64,000 nt of DNA from Brevibacillus laterosporus DSM 25 (GTDB lineage Bacteria > Bacillota > Bacilli > Brevibacillales > Brevibacillaceae). The stretch's first letter is position 1. Every line of letters begins with the position of its first letter. A program made the position numbers and the translations under genes. This document shows, in pieces, positions 6,738 to 64,000 of this stretch. Where the stretch lies: positions 4,191,501-4,255,500 of the forward strand of contig NZ_CP017705.1 in NCBI RefSeq assembly GCF_002706795.1. The letters are read 5' to 3'. Below the pieces are notes generated by a model. It searched no databases and was not told the DNA's origin. It worked only from the letters and a program-made list of their open reading frames with translations.

Positions 6738-8399
6738 ATGGATCAAAGAAAATGTGAATGCGGACACACCAACCCGGTGGGAACGCTTTTGTGTGAATCC
6801 TGCGGTATACCTCTTTTACAGCCTGTTAAAGAGATAGATGAAAAGAAAGCGTTTCCTGATATGCGTTATGAAGGGACAGCTCGCCGTTCCCAGACTTATT
6901 CCACCTCGGTAGTGGATAAAGTCTGGAACTTCTTTTCTTCTGTAAAAATCGCAATCATCATAATAATCATTACCTTGGTGATGGCAGGAGTTGGTACAAT
7001 CCTGCCGCAGTTAGAATATGTCCCGGTCCCTTTACTAGATGAACCCAGCAAAGCTTTATTTTATGAACAAACGTACGGTTTTTTTGGTAAGGTGTATTAC
7101 GCTTTAGGCTTTCATGAAATGTATGGATCTTGGTGGTTTGTTTCCTTATTAGTAATGATAGGAATATCATTGGTTATTTGTAGTTTAGACCGGGTAATAC
7201 CGTTGTACAAAGCGTTGAATAAACCACGTTTGAATCAGCATCTTTCGTTTTATAAAGGGCAGAAGTTACACGCAGATATGTTACTACCGGAGGGACTTTC
7301 CGGTGAAGAAAAGCTTGCACAAGTGCAGAGCTGGTATAAGAAAAAAGGCTATCGCGTCTATCGGGAAGGTAATTCCGTATTGGGAGAAAAAGCAAGGTTT
7401 AGTAGATGGGGTCCCTATGTGAATCATATTGGACTGATTATTTTCTTGTTAGGTGTATTGCTGCGTGGTGTACCACAATTCTTCTTAGAGGATACGATTT
7501 GGGTGCGTGAAGGGCAAACCGTAAAAGTGCCAGGAACTGAGCTCTATATTGAAAATCTAGATTATAAGACTGAATATTATACAAAGGATGAATTTGCTGA
7601 AGATCTTCCGTTACAAGAAGGGCAAGTAATTCCGAAGAACTACCAGACTGATGCTGTTTTATACAAAAATGAAAATGAAGGGCTAGCGGGAGCCAAGCCC
7701 AAATTGGTGGAAGTCAAAAGAGGATCAATTACCGTAAATCATCCGCTGACTTACGAGGGAATTCTTTTATACCAATTGGATCGTCGAGAACAAATGCTGG
7801 GCGCACTTAATTTTGATTTATATGATGCCAAAGAGAAGGAAAAGAGAGTTGGCTCGTTTAAAATTGATTTGTATGAGCCTAAAAAGGAACAAAAAGTAGG
7901 CAATCATTACGTTGTGCGTGTCATGGATTATTTCCCAGATTTTGAGCTAGGCAAAGATGGGGTACCGACGACCAAAACAACTTTACCAAATAATCCGATG
8001 GTTGCATTGGAATTTATTGATTCGAAAACAAATGAGAGCGAACGATTAGCATACGTAGCCGGTGGGTTTATTGAAAATACAAAATCACCTCGCTTCATTT
8101 TAGAAGTACATAAGCCTGATATCATTGATTCAAGCGGCTTATTGGTGCGTAAGGATACCATGATTCCGTTAATCTACTTCGGGGCTTTTATTACGATGAT
8201 TGGGTTAGTCATGGGCTTCTATTGGCAACATCGCCGGATTTGGGTGCATGTTACAAATAATGAGCTGTATCTAGCCGGTCACACCAATAAAAACTGGTTT
8301 GGTTTACAACAGGAAGTTAAGAATCTGGTGAAACAATTGGAGTTACCATTGGAACTCATTCTTGAACAAGATAAACAAAAATCGAAGAAGAAAGCGTAG
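6738..8399 (+). CDS. resB: Cytochrome c biogenesis protein ResB
   Basis: ResB is the Ccs1 subunit of the system II cytochrome c synthase, which moves haem across the membrane and attaches it to CxxCH motifs together with ResC. The 553-residue product has a short N-terminal zinc-ribbon-like segment (CECG and CESCG, residues 7-25), membrane helices near 70-95, 135-155 and 220-245, a large extracytoplasmic domain and a last helix near 475-495. The N-terminal ribbon is also seen in Bacillus ResB. It is 21 bases downstream of resA and is followed by resC. Confidence 0.93.
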   Translation: MDQRKCECGHTNPVGTLLCESCGIPLLQPVKEIDEKKAFPDMRYEGTARRSQTYSTSVVDKVWNFFSSVKIAIIIIIITLVMAGVGTILPQLEYVPVPLLDEPSKALFYEQTYGFFGKVYYALGFHEMYGSWWFVSLLVMIGISLVICSLDRVIPLYKALNKPRLNQHLSFYKGQKLHADMLLPEGLSGEEKLAQVQSWYKKKGYRVYREGNSVLGEKARFSRWGPYVNHIGLIIFLLGVLLRGVPQFFLEDTIWVREGQTVKVPGTELYIENLDYKTEYYTKDEFAEDLPLQEGQVIPKNYQTDAVLYKNENEGLAGAKPKLVEVKRGSITVNHPLTYEGILLYQLDRREQMLGALNFDLYDAKEKEKRVGSFKIDLYEPKKEQKVGNHYVVRVMDYFPDFELGKDGVPTTKTTLPNNPMVALEFIDSKTNESERLAYVAGGFIENTKSPRFILEVHKPDIIDSSGLLVRKDTMIPLIYFGAFITMIGLVMGFYWQHRRIWVHVTNNELYLAGHTNKNWFGLQQEVKNLVKQLELPLELILEQDKQKSKKKA

Positions 8400-19593: not shown

Positions 19594-19880
19594 AAAAAAA
19601 CCTCTCAGCCTCCCCACTACAAAACACATGATGTAGTGAGGGGCGAGAAGTTATATTCGCGGTACCACCCTCATTTGTTCTTCTTTTCGCAAAAAAGAAC
19701 CTTACCAGGTAACAAGACCTGAGAGATAACGGATCATCCGTTCAAACCTACGACCGTAAGCGGGCTGGGTTTGCCAACTCGGAAGTGCTCATCTTTTAAC
19801 GGAATCACCGGTTCGCAGCAACCACCGGCTCTCTGAGGATTTCCTGTAAAAGCATCTCTTCGTCAAAGTTGTTTCGTATG
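19594..19880 (-). ncRNA. T-box riboswitch, probably serine-specific
   Basis: On the minus strand the element has the conserved T-box sequence AGGGTGGTACCGCGAA (plus-strand 19656-19671), a strong terminator whose arms cover plus-strand 19601-19620 and 19633-19650 with T7 after it, and a Stem I ending in AGAGAGCCGGTGG...CCGGTGA. Pairing GAAG/CTTC below and CTTTTA/TAAAAG above the specifier loop places ATGAGCA in the loop, giving specifier codon AGC (Ser). Uncharged tRNA-Ser would stabilise the antiterminator and switch on the aminotransferase-serA operon. The upstream boundary is approximate. Confidence 0.9.
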
Positions 19881-56395: not shown

Positions 56396-57133
56396 ATGGA
56401 TGATCTAATCGTGAAAATAGATAGTAATCAGTTCGTTAGGAACCTTGCATCTAATGGGCAATGGGCATCAGGTGATGTTAGTCAGGTAGCACAAATTCAA
56501 GAGCTATTGGATAATCAGGCGAATTCAAATGGACAAGATCCCTTGTTTTCGGATGTATTTGATAGTGAGTTGCAAAAATATCAACATGTAATCTCTAAAG
56601 AGCAGGTCCTAGCTGAGTTAGATGGGACGAAGCAGCAAGATAATTGGAATTCTTCAATGAACTATTCTTCAACCTCTCCTGACCTTTCCTTTAGTAGGGG
56701 CGAATCTATGACATGGAGCCGTCAGCAGATCGTGGATAAAATTGAGCAGGTGAGCAAACGTTTTGGCGTAAACTCTGACTTGGTCAAAGAGGTGGTACGA
56801 GCCGAGTCTAATTTTAATCCTGTTGTTACTTCTCATGCTGGAGCAAAAGGTCTCATGCAATTAATGGATGATACTGCTCGTAGTGTAGGGGTACGCAATT
56901 CTTATGATCCGGATCAAAATTTGACAGGCGGTACTCAATATCTGGGCAAATTACTCGACCGATATGATGGTAATGTAAAGGTTGCATTGGCTGCTTATAA
57001 TGCAGGATCTGGTCGAGTCAGAAGGGCTGGAATTGAGACAGATGAAGATTTTGACCGTCTAGCAGCTAATCTTCCTCAAGAGACACAGCGTTATGTCGCC
57101 AAGATAACGACGAAATTGCAAGCGGAAGATTAG
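56396..57133 (+). CDS. Lytic transglycosylase (SLT domain)
   Basis: This 245-residue murein lytic enzyme has a C-terminal SLT domain from about residue 108 with catalytic Glu in VVRAESNFNP, then GAKGLMQLM, GTQYLGKLL and AAYNAGSGRV. The N-terminal 100 residues are polar and unordered, with no evident signal peptide, as in other Bacillus-type homologues (YjbJ-like). GAGGAGA abuts ATG 56396, so the exact start is uncertain. It precedes mtrB by 44 bases and may be cotranscribed with it. Confidence 0.85.
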   Translation: MDDLIVKIDSNQFVRNLASNGQWASGDVSQVAQIQELLDNQANSNGQDPLFSDVFDSELQKYQHVISKEQVLAELDGTKQQDNWNSSMNYSSTSPDLSFSRGESMTWSRQQIVDKIEQVSKRFGVNSDLVKEVVRAESNFNPVVTSHAGAKGLMQLMDDTARSVGVRNSYDPDQNLTGGTQYLGKLLDRYDGNVKVALAAYNAGSGRVRRAGIETDEDFDRLAANLPQETQRYVAKITTKLQAED

Positions 57134-57177
57134 GTAGGGTATAGTAAAGAGAGAAATTCTCTTAGGGGGACAAAAAG

Positions 57178-57417
57178 ATGGACCAACATCAACAACGAAG
57201 CAATGGCAACCAAGACTTTTTTGTTATTAAAGCAAAAGAAAATGGAGTACATGTGATCGGATTGACCCGTGGTACAGATACACGTTTTCACCATACAGAA
57301 AAACTAGATAAGGGCGAAGTAATGTTAGCCCAATTTACGGAGCATACATCTGCTATTAAGGTACGTGGTAAGGCGATTATTCAAACCAGACATGGAGTTA
57401 TTGATACAGAGGAATAA
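57178..57417 (+). CDS. mtrB: Tryptophan RNA-binding attenuation protein TRAP
   Basis: TRAP forms an 11-mer ring that binds tryptophan and then NAG-repeat leader RNA to terminate trp operon transcription. The 79-residue product matches closely: [54 protein letters not shown], including the RNA-binding Lys/Arg set and the Trp-pocket HTSA. AGGGGGA precedes ATG 57178. In B. subtilis it directly follows mtrA (folE); here it is 7.9 kb away behind a transglycosylase gene. Confidence 0.95.
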
Positions 57418-57432
57418 TGGTAGAAAATGTAG

Positions 57433-57466
57433 AAAAGAAAGTGACCATGGGTCGCTTTCTTTTCTT
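57433..57466 (+). terminator. mtrB: Intrinsic terminator after mtrB
   Basis: AAAAGAAAGTGACC and GGTCGCTTTCTTTT around ATG, followed by T-rich sequence. Confidence 0.8.
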
Positions 57467-57495
57467 TTTCGGTATAAAAAGTGAAGAAAATGTTG

Positions 57496-57524
57496 TTGAC
57501 GTTTGTTTGCGAGGATAGTATGAT
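57496..57524 (+). promoter_or_regulatory. Promoter of the PTS operon
   Basis: TTGACG at 57496-57501 and TATGAT at 57519-57524, 17-base spacer; near-consensus sigma-A. Start expected near 57531, at the edge of the GAACAAATG repeats. The aco-type operon promoter at 63006 shares the same TTGACG. Confidence 0.7.
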
Positions 57525-57530
57525 AAAGCT

Positions 57531-57642
57531 GTAAGGAACAAATGATAAAAGTAAGAACAAATGTAACAGGAAACAATGGAATAATTTGTGAAAAGAGCCA
57601 CGGGCTAGATTTGTATGAATGTCATACGATCTGGCCCTTTTT
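57531..57642 (+). promoter_or_regulatory. Attenuator leader with tandem GAACAAATG repeats (copy 1)
   Basis: Two GAACAAATG copies start at 57536 and 57555 (period 19), with a weaker GAAACAATG at 57570. They are followed by GAGCCACGGGC and by a terminator with arms GGGCTAGAT (57602-57610) and ATCTGGCCC (57629-57637), an inner GTATGA/TCATAC helix and T5, ending 65 bases before the IIA gene. The same arrangement occurs at 63043-63123. This is expected to stop transcription unless relieved. Confidence 0.65.
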
Positions 57643-57707
57643 GTATAGAAATGTTGGCTTTTTGCACAAAAAAGACAGAGACAGCTTAGATAGAAGGGAG
57701 AATCCAC

Positions 57708-58181
57708 ATGTCATTTTTTGAGATGGTGCAAACGGATCATTTGTTTATATTTCCAGATGAGACCCGTCAAGACGTTATCCTAGAAATCATGGCAAAATCG
57801 TTATGGAGTAAGGGCTTTGTGCATGAAAGTTATGTAAACGCTGTCAAGGATCGTGAAAAGCATTATCCCACTGGTTTAGAGTTGGCTGATGTACATGTGG
57901 CTATTCCACATACGGATGCGTGTCACGTTAAACAGCAAACCATTGCATTGGGTGTAGTGAAACAAGGTACAAAATTTCACTGTATGGCTGATGCAAGCAA
58001 AACGATTTCAGTCAAGCTTATTATCATGCTAGCGATTGAAAAAAGTGAGGCTCATTTGGAAATGTTGGAAGAGATTATGACGTTCATCCAGGATGCTTCA
58101 CGCTTGGAGGCACTTAGTCAGGCTAGTACTCCGGTAGAATTTTTTTCAGTTATCCAGCCAGCTAACAGTTACAACCACTAA
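57708..58181 (+). CDS. PTS galactitol-type IIA component
   Basis: The IIA protein passes phosphate from HPr to IIB. The 157-residue product is of the fructose/mannitol/galactitol IIA fold, with phospho-His68 in VHVAIPHTD. AGAAGGGAGAATCCAC precedes ATG 57708. It is first in the IIA-IIB-IIC operon behind the attenuator-like leader. Galactitol is inferred from the IIB/IIC type; related systems carry other polyols or pentoses. Confidence 0.85.
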   Translation: MSFFEMVQTDHLFIFPDETRQDVILEIMAKSLWSKGFVHESYVNAVKDREKHYPTGLELADVHVAIPHTDACHVKQQTIALGVVKQGTKFHCMADASKTISVKLIIMLAIEKSEAHLEMLEEIMTFIQDASRLEALSQASTPVEFFSVIQPANSYNH

Positions 58182-58199
58182 TTTTAGGAGGAATTCATT

Positions 58200-58484
58200 A
58201 TGGCAAAGAAAAAAGTTATGGTGATTTGTGGTACAGGGGTAGCAACTTCTACAGTGGTTATGCAGAAATTAAAAACGTTCTTCCAAGAAAAAGGATTAGA
58301 GGCTAATTTAGAGCAATCAAAAGTAAGCGATGTTTTAAATAAGGGTGATCAATACGACCTGATTATTTCCACTACAGCAGTACCAACTAATTTACAAGAA
58401 AAGGTGATTAACGCTGTTCCGTTGTTAACAGGAATCGGTAAAGAAAAAGTGTTTGCCGAAATTGAGAAACGGATGAACGAATAG
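58200..58484 (+). CDS. PTS galactitol-type IIB component
   Basis: The 94-residue IIB has phospho-Cys10 in VICGTGVATSTVV, the P-loop-like site of Gat-type IIB proteins. It takes phosphate from IIA and gives it to the incoming sugar at IIC. TAGGAGGAATTCATT precedes ATG 58200. Confidence 0.9.
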   Translation: MAKKKVMVICGTGVATSTVVMQKLKTFFQEKGLEANLEQSKVSDVLNKGDQYDLIISTTAVPTNLQEKVINAVPLLTGIGKEKVFAEIEKRMNE

Positions 58485-58512
58485 CCATTTTACTGAGTTA
58501 GGGGATGAGGGA

Positions 58513-59856
58513 ATGGAGTACTTACAAAAGATTGTTAATTTAGGGCCAACTGTCGTATTGCCCATTATCATCTTCATTTTTGCGATTCTCTTAAAAACGA
58601 AGCCCGGACAGGCGTTCCGGGCTGGACTCACTATCGGGATTGGATTTGTTGGGGTCAATCTGATTATTGGATTACTTAGCAGTTCACTTGGTCCTGCAGC
58701 TCAAGATATGGTCAAAAATCTAGGAGTGGAGCTAACGATTATCGATGTAGGCTGGCCAGCTAGTTCAGCCATTGCGTTTGGTACAACGATAGGAGCTCTT
58801 GCTATCCCGATTGGTCTTGGGGTCAACCTAGCAATGCTAGTATTCGGACTCACTAAGACATTAAATGTAGACGTATGGAACCTATGGCATATCGCATTTA
58901 CTGGATCATTGGTGACAGTTATGACCGATAGTGTACCGATGGGTTTATTGACAGCGATTGTTCATGCAATCGTATTACTTGTACTAGCGGACATGTCTTC
59001 TAAGCATGTGTCTGAATTTTATGGTTATCAAGGAGTTACATTCCCGCATGGTACTTCTACTGCTTTTTATGTGATCGCCATGCCGCTCGAAAAATTATTT
59101 AATATGATTCCAGGGTTGCGTAGCTTAAAAGCTGACCCAGATTCCATTCAAAAACGGATGGGCGTGTTGGGTGAATCAACCGTACTAGGTCTTATTCTAG
59201 GTATTATTATCGGTCTTTTAGCTGGGTGGAGTGTGAAGGATGTCTTAACCCTTGGGGTAAATACAGCTGCTGTTATGCTCCTGTTACCTCGAATGGTAGC
59301 TGTTCTTATGGAAGGATTATTACCAGTATCGGAAGCGGCTTCGGAATTTGTTCGCAGTAAGTTCCCAGATCGTGAAGTAAATATTGGGATGGACTCTGCG
59401 CTCGCAGTAGGACATCCAGCCGCTATAGCCTCATCGTTAATTATGATCCCTATTGTTTTGGCATTGGCAGTACTGCTTCCTGGTAACAAGGTGTTACCTT
59501 TCGGAGATTTAGCAACCATTCCGTTTATTGTCTGCTTAATGGTTCCTGTGTTTAAAGGAAACGTGGTACGTACTGTTCTCGGGTCAACGATCGCTCTGGG
59601 ACTGGGCTTATTATTAGCCACTTACGTATCTCCGCTTATTACTACTGCGGCAACTATGGCAGGGTTCAAATTCCCTGAGGGGGCTGCGGCAATCTCTTCC
59701 TTAGTGGATGGTGCGGTTCCTACGACAGCATTATTCGTTTTTGGTGCTAAGCTGGGGTACGTCGGTATCATTGGGATTGGTGCTATTGCCATAGGTACAG
59801 CTATTTATTTGAGACGACGGGACAAAAGAAAGATGCTACAACAACGCGAGATGTGA
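58513..59856 (+). CDS. PTS galactitol-type IIC permease
   Basis: The 447-residue membrane permease has the GatC-type signature elements LPIIIFIFAILLKTKPGQA near the N terminus, GLTIGIGFVGVNLIIG and the later VDGAVPTTALFVFGAKLG. About ten helices are predicted. The C terminus is basic. GGGGATGAGGG precedes the ATG. Substrate is inferred from family only. Confidence 0.88.
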   Translation: MEYLQKIVNLGPTVVLPIIIFIFAILLKTKPGQAFRAGLTIGIGFVGVNLIIGLLSSSLGPAAQDMVKNLGVELTIIDVGWPASSAIAFGTTIGALAIPIGLGVNLAMLVFGLTKTLNVDVWNLWHIAFTGSLVTVMTDSVPMGLLTAIVHAIVLLVLADMSSKHVSEFYGYQGVTFPHGTSTAFYVIAMPLEKLFNMIPGLRSLKADPDSIQKRMGVLGESTVLGLILGIIIGLLAGWSVKDVLTLGVNTAAVMLLLPRMVAVLMEGLLPVSEAASEFVRSKFPDREVNIGMDSALAVGHPAAIASSLIMIPIVLALAVLLPGNKVLPFGDLATIPFIVCLMVPVFKGNVVRTVLGSTIALGLGLLLATYVSPLITTAATMAGFKFPEGAAAISSLVDGAVPTTALFVFGAKLGYVGIIGIGAIAIGTAIYLRRRDKRKMLQQREM

Positions 59857-59910
59857 TAAAAATAAAATAACGAAAGATCACTTGTTCCTTTAACGATTAC
59901 AAGTAGGTAT

Positions 59911-59937
59911 AACCAGGAGAGCATGTATCTCCTGGTT
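59911..59937 (+). terminator. Hairpin after IIC gene
   Basis: AACCAGGAGA and TCTCCTGGTT arms with a 7-base loop; no clear T run, so a weak terminator or RNA-end stabiliser. Confidence 0.5.
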
Positions 59938-60088
59938 CGTCTACGTTTGTATCGCACTTTTGTGCTTATGAAGAACAATTTCTACCACTGGTATATAATG
60001 AGTGGTCGGTATGTAGAAGACTCAGGGATTGAAAGAAATTGTGAGTAGTTATCAGGGATTCTGCTAAAAAGGGAAGGAATGGTGGCAA

Positions 60089-61249
60089 ATGAAGACACAG
60101 CTACTGCGGATTGTACAGGAGGAAGATCCCAAAAATCCGCTGACTGACGAAGAGATTGCCGCAAAATTAGGAATTAGGAGAGATAAATGTACGTTATTGC
60201 GCCAACAGTTTCATATCCCTGATTCCCGTAAAAGACGGTTACCATTGCTGACAGCAGAAATGAACCGGATTCTAAAGGAGCATTCACAGATATCAGATCG
60301 CAAACTAACAGGAGAGCTACGCAAAATAGGGTTTGAAATATCAAAATTTACTGTGATGAATTTGCGGAAAGAACAGCAAGAAAATTGGCTAGAGATGTCT
60401 TTGACCACAGAAACACTTGTTTCTCAAAACAAGGAACAGTCAGCACAACGAAGACTACGGCAGTTTGCTGATTTGATCGAGAGTGATGGTTTCTTATTGC
60501 CATTTGTACAGCAGGTGAAGGCAGTCATTTTATACCCATATCAAAAGCTACCAATTTTATTTCAGGGAGAAAAGGGCACAGGTAAGCGAGCTATTGCAGA
60601 AGCAGCCTTTTCCTTTGCGAAACAAGAGAAACAACTTACATCAGAAGCTATCTTTATAGAGATAGATATACGAGAGATACCGGAAGGGCCGTTATTTGAG
60701 CAACGGATTCACGATACACTTTGTAGCTATAAAGGTGTAGGTGGTGCACTGTATATTCGGGAAATTCAGCTTTTATCCCTGAAGTCTATAGAAGGGGTGC
60801 TCAAGCGTGTACGAGAGATGGACTCACCCATATTCGTTTTCGCGTCAAGCACGAATACAGCAGGCTGGGATAATACTGACTTCATGCATCGCTTGTTTCC
60901 CATTCAGATCCACTTACCAGCCTTAGCATCATGGCCGAAAGAGTCACAGCTCCGTTTTCTTGAGGATATGATTCAACAGCAAGCACAACAAGCTGGTTGT
61001 CCGATTCGTATGGATAAATGCGGAGAAAGTAAAAAACTGATGAATGGGTATACGGCTAACATTACGCAGTTACGAGCAGAAATCCGCGCTTTTGTTTGCA
61101 ATGAATTAATAGATTGGTTATTTGAAACCATTTCTACTCCGCAAAGTGATGAAAGAACGAAACAAAGCTCTCCGACGGCTGTAGCGCCTGACTCAATCTA
61201 TCATTGGCTACAGTTTTGCACAAATGAATCAACAAGGGGTTCAGCCTGA
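60089..61249 (+). CDS. LevR-type regulator, N-terminal part (degenerate AAA+)
   Basis: The 386-residue ORF has two HTH-like units at the N terminus (residues 10-50 and 55-95); the first, with NPLTDEEIAAKLGI and PDSRKRR, resembles the DNA-binding tail of sigma-54. An AAA+ region follows with Walker A GEKGTGKR (residues about 165-172), but the Walker B acidic pair is replaced (GALYIREIQ) and no GAFTGA sigma-54 loop is seen. The ORF ends inside what should be a linker, and the next ORF, shifted by one frame and overlapping by 26 bases, supplies the PRD and PTS domains. It is either one gene split by a frameshift or two coupled genes. Confidence 0.65.
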   Translation: MKTQLLRIVQEEDPKNPLTDEEIAAKLGIRRDKCTLLRQQFHIPDSRKRRLPLLTAEMNRILKEHSQISDRKLTGELRKIGFEISKFTVMNLRKEQQENWLEMSLTTETLVSQNKEQSAQRRLRQFADLIESDGFLLPFVQQVKAVILYPYQKLPILFQGEKGTGKRAIAEAAFSFAKQEKQLTSEAIFIEIDIREIPEGPLFEQRIHDTLCSYKGVGGALYIREIQLLSLKSIEGVLKRVREMDSPIFVFASSTNTAGWDNTDFMHRLFPIQIHLPALASWPKESQLRFLEDMIQQQAQQAGCPIRMDKCGESKKLMNGYTANITQLRAEIRAFVCNELIDWLFETISTPQSDERTKQSSPTAVAPDSIYHWLQFCTNESTRGSA

Positions 61250-62819
61250 ACTAATTCGACTCCAATTGCAACATGAATGCCGAGAACGATTGAGAGATGA
61301 CAGTGGAAAACGTAAGTCAGATGCAGAGCGTGCTCGCAGTCTAAGTATTTTTGTCGGAGAAAAGGTCATGCAAATGGTAGAGCAAATGCTATGGATTGCA
61401 GAGAGGCACCTTGTGCTCGATCATGAAAAGCTATTAATGGCTCTTGCTTTGCATGTGAAAGGGATGTTAGAACGTTATCAGGTTACAGAGCCAAATCAGA
61501 TTTATCATGGGGATCGAAAAAGCGAGGCAACTACTACTTACTTGTCAATGGAATGGATTGTTGCCGAAGAGATGGCAGAGGTAATAAAAAGCACTTGGGG
61601 AATTAGCATTACGAAGGCAGAAACAGAAATGCTGGCTCGATATGTGAAGCATTGCACCCTTATTGAAAAAAATTCACCAACTGTCGGTATGGTTTTGGTT
61701 TCATACGGTAGTATTGCTGAGAGTATGGCAGAACAACTACATTCTTTATTTGGGCAACATCATATTCAAGCAGTTAGTCTCTCTGTAGATGATTCGGAGG
61801 AGCGTTTTTTGTCTAAAGTTAGCTCTGCTATTAAACGGGCAGACCATGGTATGGGAGTTGTCGTCTTGGCAGATGCTGGACGGATGGTAGGTAGTGAAGA
61901 GATTTGGCGGGAACATGTTCAGGTAGAAACGTTAATATTTGCACCTCTGAGCTTGCCATTTGCTATGGAGGTTATGCGTCGCTGCTTGTACGCACCAAAG
62001 TCATTGTCTCATGTGGCACAGGAAATTGTTCAATGGCGTATGCCAGTTTCCCCTTTTTTAGATGAGTGGAAAATAGCCAAGCCCAAAGCATTGATGTTGG
62101 TTTGTTTGACTGGGGAAGGGGCAGCACGTCAACTCGGACAAATTGTGAGCGAGCATGTGGGAGATCGTGGTGGGGATCTACATTATTTGTTTGCAAATAC
62201 TCATACGGTACGCTCCTCCTATACAAAGTGGAAAGAGGAATATCATATTTTAGCGGTTGTAGGCACGATTGATCCATTGGTAGATGGGCTACCCTTTATC
62301 TCCTTACAGAATTTAATTGAGGGAAGTGGATTTTCGTTTTTAGATCGCTTATTAATGGTGGGTGATTGGACGGGTGGACAAGCAGATAGTGATCAACGGA
62401 CACCATTACACATGCAGGATTTATTTGTGACGGATCTTATTTTTTCAGATTGCAACATTTCTAATAAAAAAGAAGCAATTCTTTTTCTTGCTCACAAGCT
62501 AGTAGAAAAAGGCTACGTAAAACCCGAATTCGTACAGAAGGTGTGGGAACGCGAAAAGCTTGGGACAACATCACTCGCAGGTGGTATCGCGATCCCGCAT
62601 GCAGAGCCTGCTCAGACTATCAAGCCTGCCGTTGCCATTATGCAATTGGCTCATCCTCTGGAGTGGGGACCGGGTATTCAGGTAGACTGGGTAATCATGT
62701 TGGCAGTTAATGATACATGCCAATTTGCTGTGGAAGAATTAATGGAAGCATTGGAAGAACCAGCGAATATCCAGAAGATTACAACCAGAGGTGGGGAGGA
62801 AGAGAAATGGAATCAATGA
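61224..62819 (+). CDS. LevR-type regulator, C-terminal PRD/PTS-domain part
   Basis: The 531-residue ORF has a PRD (about 25-145, with ALHVKGMLERYQ), an IIA-Man-like domain (150-265) in which the usual phospho-His of the HG motif is Tyr161 (VSYGS), a IIB-Gat-like domain with Cys294 in VCLTGEGAA, and a C-terminal IIA-Fru/Mtl-like domain with His459 in AIPHAEP. This is the tail order of LevR/ManR regulators. There is no ribosome site of quality in front of ATG 61224, which favours a frameshifted single gene of about 910 residues over two genes. Phosphorylation would report PTS activity. Confidence 0.7.
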   Translation: MNQQGVQPELIRLQLQHECRERLRDDSGKRKSDAERARSLSIFVGEKVMQMVEQMLWIAERHLVLDHEKLLMALALHVKGMLERYQVTEPNQIYHGDRKSEATTTYLSMEWIVAEEMAEVIKSTWGISITKAETEMLARYVKHCTLIEKNSPTVGMVLVSYGSIAESMAEQLHSLFGQHHIQAVSLSVDDSEERFLSKVSSAIKRADHGMGVVVLADAGRMVGSEEIWREHVQVETLIFAPLSLPFAMEVMRRCLYAPKSLSHVAQEIVQWRMPVSPFLDEWKIAKPKALMLVCLTGEGAARQLGQIVSEHVGDRGGDLHYLFANTHTVRSSYTKWKEEYHILAVVGTIDPLVDGLPFISLQNLIEGSGFSFLDRLLMVGDWTGGQADSDQRTPLHMQDLFVTDLIFSDCNISNKKEAILFLAHKLVEKGYVKPEFVQKVWEREKLGTTSLAGGIAIPHAEPAQTIKPAVAIMQLAHPLEWGPGIQVDWVIMLAVNDTCQFAVEELMEALEEPANIQKITTRGGEEEKWNQ

Positions 62820-62977
62820 AAAGAGTAACTCCTGGCACAAAAATATATAAATTGTTTGAACACGATAAATTTGTATGCGAGGGCACGGAAGAAGTTTTTC
62901 TCATTCCCATTGAAAAATTAACCAAAGAGGAATTTAAAAAACGCTTGGAAGAAAATCCAAAGTTGTTAGAAGAATAA
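62807..62977 (+). CDS. 56-aa protein of unknown function
   Basis: ATG 62807 follows GGTGGGGAGGAAGAGAA, a very strong ribosome site, and overlaps the end of the regulator by 13 bases. The product is highly charged: MESMKRVTPGTKIYKLFEHDKF, then CEGTEEVFLIPIEKL and a basic-acidic helix FKKRLEENPKLLEE. One Cys. No family recognised. It lies between the regulator and the leader of the dehydrogenase operon. Confidence 0.65.
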   Translation: MESMKRVTPGTKIYKLFEHDKFVCEGTEEVFLIPIEKLTKEEFKKRLEENPKLLEE

Positions 62978-63005
62978 AAAGATAAGAAAACCATTGAGAT
63001 AATGG

Positions 63006-63033
63006 TTGACGGATATAAAAAAAGAGGTAAAAT
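63006..63033 (+). promoter_or_regulatory. Promoter of the dehydrogenase operon
   Basis: TTGACG at 63006-63011 and TAAAAT at 63028-63033, 16-base spacer; the -35 box is identical to that of the PTS operon. Confidence 0.65.
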
Positions 63034-63039
63034 AAAGAT

Positions 63040-63124
63040 GTAGAACAAATGTAACTTATCAGAACAAATGTAAAAAAGGGCCTCGGGCCGAATGCTTCCC
63101 TGTGTGGAGGTGTTCGGCCTTTTG
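63040..63124 (+). promoter_or_regulatory. Attenuator leader with tandem GAACAAATG repeats (copy 2)
   Basis: GAACAAATG occurs at 63043-63051 and 63062-63070, period 19 as in copy 1, then GGGCCTCGGGCC and a terminator with arms GGCCGAA (63086-63092) and TTCGGCC (63113-63119), inner TCC/GGA pairs and a T-rich run. It ends about 32 bases before the E1 alpha start. The GCC-N-CGGGC block just before the hairpin is shared with copy 1. Confidence 0.65.
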
Positions 63125-63155
63125 TCTTTTTCTAAAGAGCAAAGGAGGGTACAAC

Positions 63156-64000
63156 ATGACTACTGCTTGGCAATTGCCTGAGATGATTACGGAGCAAAAG
63201 TTGGTTGAATTACTACATCAAATGTGGGTGATCCGCTTTTTTGATGAGAAGGTGGATGAATTTTTTGCAAAAGGGTTAATTCACGGAACTACCCATCTAT
63301 GTGTTGGACAAGAAGCAACAGCGGCAGGTGCAATCGCTGTGCTTCAACCAGAGGATAAAATTACAAGTACGCACCGCGGTCATGGACACTGCATTGCCAA
63401 AGGTGCTGATGTTAATAAAATGATGGCTGAATTATTTGGACGTGAAACGGGATATTGCAAAGGAAAAGGCGGATCGATGCATATCGCGGATGTAGATAAA
63501 GGGAATTTGGGAGCGAATGGTATTGTCGGTGGTGGTATTCCTATTGCAGTTGGAGCGGCGCTTACCTCACAAATGAGGAAGTTAGGCTATGTTACAATCA
63601 GCTTTTTTGGCGATGGAGCGAGTAATGAAGGTAGCTTTCATGAGTCAGTTAATATGGCTTCCATTTGGAAATTACCCGTTATCTTCTTCTGTGAAAATAA
63701 TCAATATGGAATGTCTGGTCCTGTAACGGAGATGGTGAATATCGAACATATTGCGGAACGGTCAAAAGCATATGGTATTCCTGGAGTCGTAGTAGATGGA
63801 AATGATCTTTTCGCAGTCATGAATGCTGTAGCTGAAGCGGCAGAACGAGCTCGGCGTGGCGAAGGGCCTACTTTAATTGAAGCCAAAACATATCGATACA
63901 AAGGTCATTCAAAGAGCGATGCGAAAAAATATCGGACACGCGAAGAAGAGATGGATTGGAGAAAAAATCGCGATTGTATTAAGAAATTACAAGAAGTATT
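63156..64000 (+). CDS. TPP-dependent acetoin/pyruvate dehydrogenase E1 alpha (partial)
   Basis: This is the alpha subunit of a 2-oxo acid or acetoin dehydrogenase complex; it is cut by the window edge after about 281 residues. It shows [14 protein letters not shown], the thiamine-diphosphate motif [10 protein letters not shown] ending with CENNQYG about 25 residues later, and the phosphorylation-loop-like region [15 protein letters not shown]. It resembles AcoA more than PdhA because of the short N terminus and the HLCVGQEA segment. ATG 63156 has AAAGGAGGG in front. Beta and E2 genes should follow outside the window. Confidence 0.85.

Follow-up and report, generated by a model that had tools for sequence, protein, structure and literature searches.

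Two operons in a 64,000-nucleotide stretch of the Brevibacillus laterosporus DSM 25 genome (NZ_CP017705.1, positions 4,191,501 to 4,255,500 of the forward strand; hereafter the window), one encoding a galactitol-type phosphotransferase system (PTS) and the other a 2-oxoacid dehydrogenase, have leaders in which a putative operator for a SorC-family repressor is followed by an intrinsic terminator that can give way to a small alternative hairpin. On comparative grounds we consider it fairly probable that both operons are controlled in two layers, a DNA operator and an RNA switch, whichever factor works the switch. The operator is the well supported part and the hairpin a fairly supported one, while the role of a small protein encoded in the same cluster, here termed SML, is what we infer. 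The genomes compared were 39 of the family and 398 of Bacilli, plus two orders for SML. The promoters and operators are as follows (window positions throughout).

57496-57524, + strand: predicted sigma-A promoter of the PTS operon, TTGACG-17-TATGAT, 10/12 consensus positions, start predicted at about 57531
57536-57566, + strand: putative SorC/DeoR-type operator of the PTS operon with two GAACAAATG half-operators, 28.6 bits with a matrix from dehydrogenase-leader sites only
63006-63033, + strand: predicted sigma-A promoter of the dehydrogenase operon, TTGACG-16-TAAAAT, 10/12 consensus positions, start predicted at about 63040
63043-63073, + strand: putative SorC/DeoR-type operator of the dehydrogenase operon, conserved at the leader in 15/15 family genomes with a SorC orthologue

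The initial annotation of this DNA had described a common TTGACG -35 box, two GAACAAATG copies with a 19-base period and a GCC-N-CGGGC block in both leaders, and all three are present. The -35 boxes start at 57496 and 63006, the copies lie at 57536-57544 and 57555-57563 in the PTS leader and at 63043-63051 and 63062-63070 in the dehydrogenase leader, and the blocks read GCC-A-CGGGC and GCC-T-CGGGC, respectively. Within 57100-63200 the two leader promoters were the sole matches to 10 of the 12 consensus positions, the total of promoter-like matches (10) being below the shuffled mean (14.2). The pattern GAACAAATG-N9-11-GAACAAATG has two occurrences in the 5.40-Mb genome, those in the two leaders, and its reversed control none. 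With up to two mismatches the double repeat becomes noisy, matching 28 of the 39 family genomes, many by chance. Exact GAACAAATG-N10-GAACAAATG was retrieved by global scans from 51 genome stretches and 17 viral stretches, of which two Brevibacillus ones (L043, L047) were read and the other 66 assumed to be chance.

Comparison of homologous dehydrogenase loci across the family extends the conserved unit beyond GAACAAATG to 31 bp of the form TTACANNTGTAAC-N6-GAACANNTGTAA, which the dehydrogenase leaders carry 3' of the -10 box; the window genus has GAACA as the first half-site also, in place of TTACA. A weight matrix built from 12 dehydrogenase-leader sites alone assigned 28.6 bits to each of three window-genus PTS sites (L134, L145, L146) and retrieved nine sites at the start of the sorbitol-PTS operon of other genera (L135-L142, L177; 25.6-36.8 bits), one more operator of the sorbitol-PTS type near a contig end in G033 (29.2 bits), the dehydrogenase operator of G038 (32.8 bits) and, in G323, which belongs to another order, an operator 13 bp upstream of sorC (34.4 bits). 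Over 8.1 million shuffled positions the same matrix gave 22 matches of at least 16 bits, the largest being 20.4; weak matches at L250 4204 (19.9), L179 1544 (18.8), L144 8246 (18.2), L183 (17.6) and, as background, L275 (17.1) are inside this shuffled range. Sorbitol-PTS genes were checked with Pfam in L136 (GutM, EII-GUT, EIIBC-GUT, EIIA-gut), as were GutM and SorC in L250, and those of the other loci were assigned by reading.

The regulator gene associated with the operator is the next after E3 on the same strand, separated from it by a 219-bp gap, at G000 4259642-4260607 (about 68142-69107 in window numbering), that is 4.1 kb beyond the window. Its product belongs to PF04198, and its best sequence matches in the PDB include DeoR, the sorbitol operon regulator SorC and LsrR. 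An orthologue (at least 51% identity) is found in 15 of the 39 family genomes, the G031 copy having one stop codon, and all 15 carry the operator at the dehydrogenase/SML leader (G031 and G033 being counted from SML and leader, as dehydrogenase genes were not looked for there). Conservation of the repeats upstream of homologous dehydrogenase operons is borne out among the genomes holding SorC. The gene co-occurs with the operator in G323 as well.

The operator resembles that of dra-nupC-pdp in B. subtilis, bound by DeoR (SorC family, DeoR subclass), which is likewise made of two halves with GAACA/TTACA half-sites and read by a regulator combining PF04198 with an N-terminal helix-turn-helix. 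In PMC11229326 a DeoR tetramer is described as binding the GAACA and TTACA half-sites on two half-operators, and R39 is reported, at limited resolution, to contact bases; an arginine of the present SorC aligns with R39, provided that chain and paper numbering agree. The arrangement differs, in that the halves here, 19 bp apart, follow the -10 box closely (before gutM they lie over it), whereas the DeoR operator spans 39 bp from -60 to -21 (PMC11229326). B. subtilis CggR, a SorC-family tetramer, does have two repeated half-operators downstream of the start, but its half-site is CGGGAC/TGTC and its position +32 to +77 (PMC11229326).

We are confident that the repeats are the two halves of a putative operator for a SorC/DeoR-family repressor, with binding and release by ligand as predictions. 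The operator and its association with SorC are read directly from the sequences; the repression and the ligand, probably a phosphorylated polyol or sugar, are what we infer from them. They add one more case to a known kind of operator; the word undescribed, once given to the whole leader, suits the terminator element better. Two other likenesses were dropped: a GlnR/TnrA site (TGTNAN7TNACA) is similar to TGTAA-N7-GAACA, but the third half-site is mostly GAACA and the associated regulator is a SorC; and a resemblance to the LexA box was given up because the relatives show TTACA there. Separately, the weak site at L250 4204 lies upstream of a galactitol-type EIIC in G323, which hints at a PTS/SorC link in another order, and a sequence resembling a catabolite-responsive element (cre), TGAAARCGNTTTCA, stands about 15-25 bp before the sorbitol-PTS operator in L135-L140 (e.g. 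L137 near 18045), in the promoter spacer, and suggests catabolite control too.

The initial annotation proposed that the GAACAAATG copies, whether as RNA or through a factor that reads them, decide if the downstream hairpin terminates transcription or lets it pass. Repeats and terminator are indeed adjacent in both window leaders and in related window-genus loci, but elsewhere they part company, and we regard this reading as highly improbable. Before gutM, a -10-like hexamer, TACAAT (17 nt from TTGAC, by reading), lies within the first half-site, which would thus not be transcribed, and no terminator stands between operator and gene. In G038 the operator precedes the dehydrogenase genes with neither SML nor the terminator element there, and in the other genera a whole gene, that of SML, separates the two; conversely, the PTS enzyme I leaders and an operon in G128 carry the terminator element with no operator nearby. 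Since it also occurs with no terminator behind it and can contain a -10 box, the operator acts as DNA. What stands of the earlier proposal is that one factor very probably co-regulates both operons and that a decision between termination and readthrough is plausible; a role of the repeats in that decision is not supported.

The second layer concerns the following features, all on the same strand.

57596-57606, + strand: small hairpin AGCC-ACG-GGCT, candidate antiterminator, alternative to the PTS terminator, with covariation
57602-57642, + strand: PTS-leader intrinsic terminator, stem 57602-57637 followed by a T run; element-model match 57590-57641, E 2.2e-6
63079-63089, + strand: small hairpin GGCC-TCG-GGCC, candidate antiterminator, alternative to the dehydrogenase terminator, with covariation
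63085-63128, + strand: dehydrogenase-leader intrinsic terminator, stem 63085-63120 followed by a T-rich tail; element-model E 2.7e-5

Both leader hairpins fold as terminators (-18.3 and -24.3 kcal/mol), as had been claimed, with the stem ending about 70 bases (PTS) and about 35 bases (dehydrogenase) before the first ATG where 30-65 had been given; a simple terminator scan listed the dehydrogenase hairpin and missed the bulged PTS one. In the first 15 leaders folded, the terminator 5' arm can pair instead with an upstream tetranucleotide across an NCG loop, forming a 4-bp hairpin of the form NNCC-NYG-GGNN, and some further copies have an ATG loop. Besides the dehydrogenase and PTS leaders, ten loci (L135-L142, L177, L178) carry the element at the position where gutM meets srlA, and six (L135, L138-L142; Pfam check in L142) carry it ahead of PTS enzyme I genes; it also precedes srlA in G323 and, in G128, an ABC-transporter operon (polyol) with Zn-dependent dehydrogenases.

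A covariance model (R1) trained on 22 copies found 36 copies in 366 kb of cluster loci, and in each of these, once aligned, the small hairpin shares sequence with the terminator 5' arm. Over 34 distinct rows it is paired in 136 of 136 cells, the pairs counting G-C 31 / A-U 3, G-C 18 / A-U 16, C-G 28 / U-G 6 and C-G 33 / U-G 1, while slid pairings reach at most 73% of cells; the terminator helix is paired in 97.3% of 373 cells. Double changes occupy 19 cells versus 6.2 in shuffles, and the covariation score was reached by none of 500 shuffles. Changes on both sides are confined to two pairs out of four, pair types are no more numerous than in shuffles, and related sequences are counted repeatedly in these figures. 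Family matches to the element model with E from 1e-3 to 1 were left uncounted, but the aligned copies include the G031 dehydrogenase leader (0.014, later 0.001) and the G034 enzyme I leader (0.00225).

This pattern bears on whether the NNCC-NYG-GGNN palindrome might be a DNA operator whose bound protein road-blocks polymerase. It is a short inverted repeat in DNA also, and the structural model of SML (see below) would be compatible with DNA binding; the arms, however, change jointly from G-C to A-U and admit U-G pairs without mismatches, and they overlap the terminator 5' arm in every aligned copy, which makes a DNA target quite improbable. Nor do we think it likely that the terminator is a leaky constitutive attenuator, with the small hairpin tuning pausing or folding and no regulator involved: the weakness of the hairpin and the lack of a known inducing signal would suit it, but compensatory changes in all contexts, and copies in several operons of one pathway at different positions, exceed the needs of a fixed leak. 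Furthermore, in twenty 20-kb stretches of the same genome only 5 of 378 terminator-like hairpins had an NYG small hairpin, none of the five with the sequence of the element, and in the window it was found in 3 of 55, namely the two leaders and an unlike copy at 7700 on the minus strand.

Ribosome-coupled attenuation, in which translation of a leader frame would block the terminator, finds some room in the SML frame that enters the hairpin in G323 and G128 and in a 55-codon frame starting at 57542 in the window PTS leader. We give it very little credence: the only start codons before the hairpin in the window dehydrogenase leader are two ATGs each immediately followed by a stop, a 13-nt deletion shifts the PTS-leader frame in G004, and the enzyme I leaders of L138 and L139 have about 20 nt from predicted start to hairpin and, by eye, lack an ATG that has a ribosome-binding site.

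The small hairpin and its covariation are direct readings of the aligned sequences, and an alternative hairpin backed by covariation, as expected of an antitermination switch, is what they contain. The small hairpin is probably a working part of a termination switch, a candidate for which readthrough is predicted to change with a trans factor or ligand. None of the Rfam covariance models matched the leaders at gathering score in a search of the whole window, nor in a permissive search of L001 and L002, and the T-box model (RF00230) matched neither leader; a T-box-like wording (TGG.ACC.CGGG) was dropped, as TGG is absent from the window leaders and no Rfam T-box match was found there. In the open-access literature nothing was found on the terminator element or on SML, which is weak evidence of absence.

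The factor that would act on the hairpin is sought in the neighbouring small gene.

62807-62977, + strand: SML, small protein without known family by profile searches, 53-56 aa depending on the start chosen, candidate antiterminator

SML is about 55 aa long, with TPGTKVYKLF and CEGK motifs, and in the dehydrogenase leaders of other genera its gene is directly 5' of the element. It is found in 14 of the 39 family genomes, and the element (E up to 1e-3) in 15, namely the same 14 and G035. Across the 398 Bacilli genomes, scanned with stricter filters so that weak copies may be missed, the two are met beyond the family in G128 and G323, as neighbours; in the orders of G323 and G128 SML is limited to the same two genomes (1/42 and 1/14). 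Two matches were excluded, an element match in G192 (8.8e-4), which has no small-hairpin 5' arm and no SML match, and an SML match in G129 (0.008), which reads like a ferredoxin. SML and element are thus together in 16 genomes of three families. In L250 (8198-8386) and L251 (14093-14251, minus strand) the SML frame ends inside the element, with tails GPRAG and GPRAECG, so that the hairpin is also coding in G323 and G128.

That SML is the factor opening the terminator is possible, and we propose it with some reserve. The hairpin might instead be read by another factor, either a different protein, a small RNA or, as part of a terminator-embedded aptamer, a small ligand; aptamers of this kind exist (PMC6478431). 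The persistence of the element in G035 without an intact SML and the lack of a recognisable RNA-binding fold in SML speak for such a factor. We nevertheless find it rather unlikely, because the conserved part outside the terminator is just about 11 nt and because SML and element are found together in the 16 genomes, including the G128 setting without adjacent SorC or PTS genes.

In the two-layer account, SorC without ligand would occupy the operator just 3' of the predicted start and block initiation or early elongation, as the DeoR and CggR precedents suggest, and would leave it upon induction. In the other genera SML, as the first gene transcribed and placed before the terminator, would then be made at once. 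The small hairpin alone being too weak to compete, most transcripts should terminate, unless SML holds the small hairpin on the transcript that encodes it and also acts in trans on the hairpins at gutM-srlA and PTS enzyme I, whereupon polymerase would read through. It is conceivable, although we advance it tentatively, that SML founds a new family of very small antiterminators recognising the 11-nt NNCC-NYG-GGNN hairpin and wires hexitol transporters, 2-oxoacid dehydrogenase and PTS enzyme I into one feed-forward circuit below the SorC repressor.

Several observations weigh against this account. The small hairpin is far weaker than the terminators (-3.9 to -6.2 versus -14.8 to -25.9 kcal/mol in 15 leaders) and would need a helper, as yet hypothetical. 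The 27 copies first collected had pairing as a condition, 22 of them being aligned for training, although the nine contributed by the model alone also pair. SML matches no family in Pfam or NCBIfam and no known RNA-binding family there; its structural model (three strands and a helix; pLDDT 82.7, predicted template modelling score, pTM, 0.48) retrieved nothing at E < 0.001 in a Foldseek search of the PDB and matches no known fold. The best VIA-align result for this model (Z 3.3; 6drt, 45 residues, 5.7 A) is not meaningful, and against PDB sequences the SML profile reached a best E of 0.5, the 0.63 of 5ons (Malignant T-cell-amplified sequence 1) being likewise not significant. SML and element are mostly neighbours, so that their co-occurrence reflects linkage as much as dependence, and in G035 (L180 8900-9900) an apparent deletion remnant, made of the SML 3' tail, the element and a truncated sorC, with no dehydrogenase genes in the fetched stretch, retains the element although SML is no longer intact. 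In the window genus the operator is beside the terminator and SML lies behind the PTS genes, hence behind the very terminator that it should open, and basal readthrough would have to start the loop. As for the operator, among seven promoters of SorC paralogues inspected by eye two have an operator pair, one a different arrangement (L186) and four none (L182, L187, L188, L189).

The two with a pair belong to paralogues in G034 and G036, where GAACAAAYGT copies 19 bp apart stand directly 3' of the paralogues' own promoters. These pairs, at L183 1303 and in L184 near the start of sorC, and a GCAAAYGT-rich region in L186, probably indicate autoregulation.

The genes downstream of the two leaders are the following.

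57708-59856, + strand: galactitol-type PTS, EIIA (57708-58181), EIIB (58200-58484) and EIIC (58513-59856), by Pfam and NCBIfam
60089-62819, + strand: LevR/DagR-like regulator in two overlapping frames (60089-61249 and 61224-62819), without GAFTGA, by Pfam and NCBIfam
63156-64000, + strand: dehydrogenase E1 alpha, cut by the window end, with E1 beta, E2, E3 and the SorC-family regulator following outside the window

The window EIIC is 98% identical to the EIICs of G003 and G004. At the galactitol-type PTS operon, 8/8 loci of other genera (L135-L142) combine a sigma-54 promoter, matching 10-11 of 11 consensus positions, with a LevR/DagR-like regulator that contains GAFTGA, the -24/-12 promoter and GAFTGA being the motifs of sigma-54 activation; both are absent from the window and its two close relatives (L134, L145, L146; 3/3). 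For the AAA+ domain (PF00158) the window regulator reaches 21.2 bits and that of L142 133.1 bits. By comparison of these loci, the PTS operon of the window genus is a case of promoter replacement, with a SorC operator and the terminator element in place of a sigma-54/LevR-type circuit, and the likeness of the two leaders is therefore regulation gained by the PTS operon. The unrelated hairpin loops, already taken as a sign against a recent duplication of the whole region, agree with such a gain. The regulator is a single 918-codon frame in L145 (4217-6970) and L146 (4145-6898); its two overlapping frames in the window may be a real frameshift or a sequence error.

The move of a transporter operon from a sigma-54/LevR-type to a sigma-A/SorC circuit, by gain of an operator and a termination switch, would be a clear regulatory rewiring. 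With the repeats assignable to an operator, they give a lead to the regulon of an unstudied SorC regulator and to its likely class of ligand. The terminator element and SML together may amount to a new variant of antitermination control, in which the RNA is well supported by comparison and the protein is linked by association only; if true, sugar-alcohol metabolism would have an antitermination mechanism whose protein and RNA target are both unusually small, and which could serve as a genetic part.

In BglG/SacY/LicT systems of sugar PTS operons, a protein-stabilised ribonucleic antiterminator (RAT) hairpin of about 30 nt overlaps the 5' part of the terminator. The likeness lies in a small hairpin over the terminator 5' part, but here it is a 4-bp hairpin with an NYG triloop, and Pfam scans of the PTS, regulator, dehydrogenase and SorC proteins found PRD, EIIA and AAA+ domains and, in these cluster proteins, no BglG-type RNA-binding domain. 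The targets of ANTAR antiterminators are two hexaloop hairpins, unlike the one triloop hairpin and the protein of about 55 aa without an ANTAR match found here. ANTAR proteins such as EutV do offer a precedent, in a catabolic operon, for an intrinsic terminator governed by a protein (PMC3369931). With LevR/DagR-type PTS activators the window shares a homologous regulator gene behind the PTS genes, whereas the window genus has a SorC operator instead of the sigma-54 promoter and GAFTGA. Elsewhere in the window, a T-box leader (RF00230, 102 bits) was found at 19636-19875 on the minus strand.

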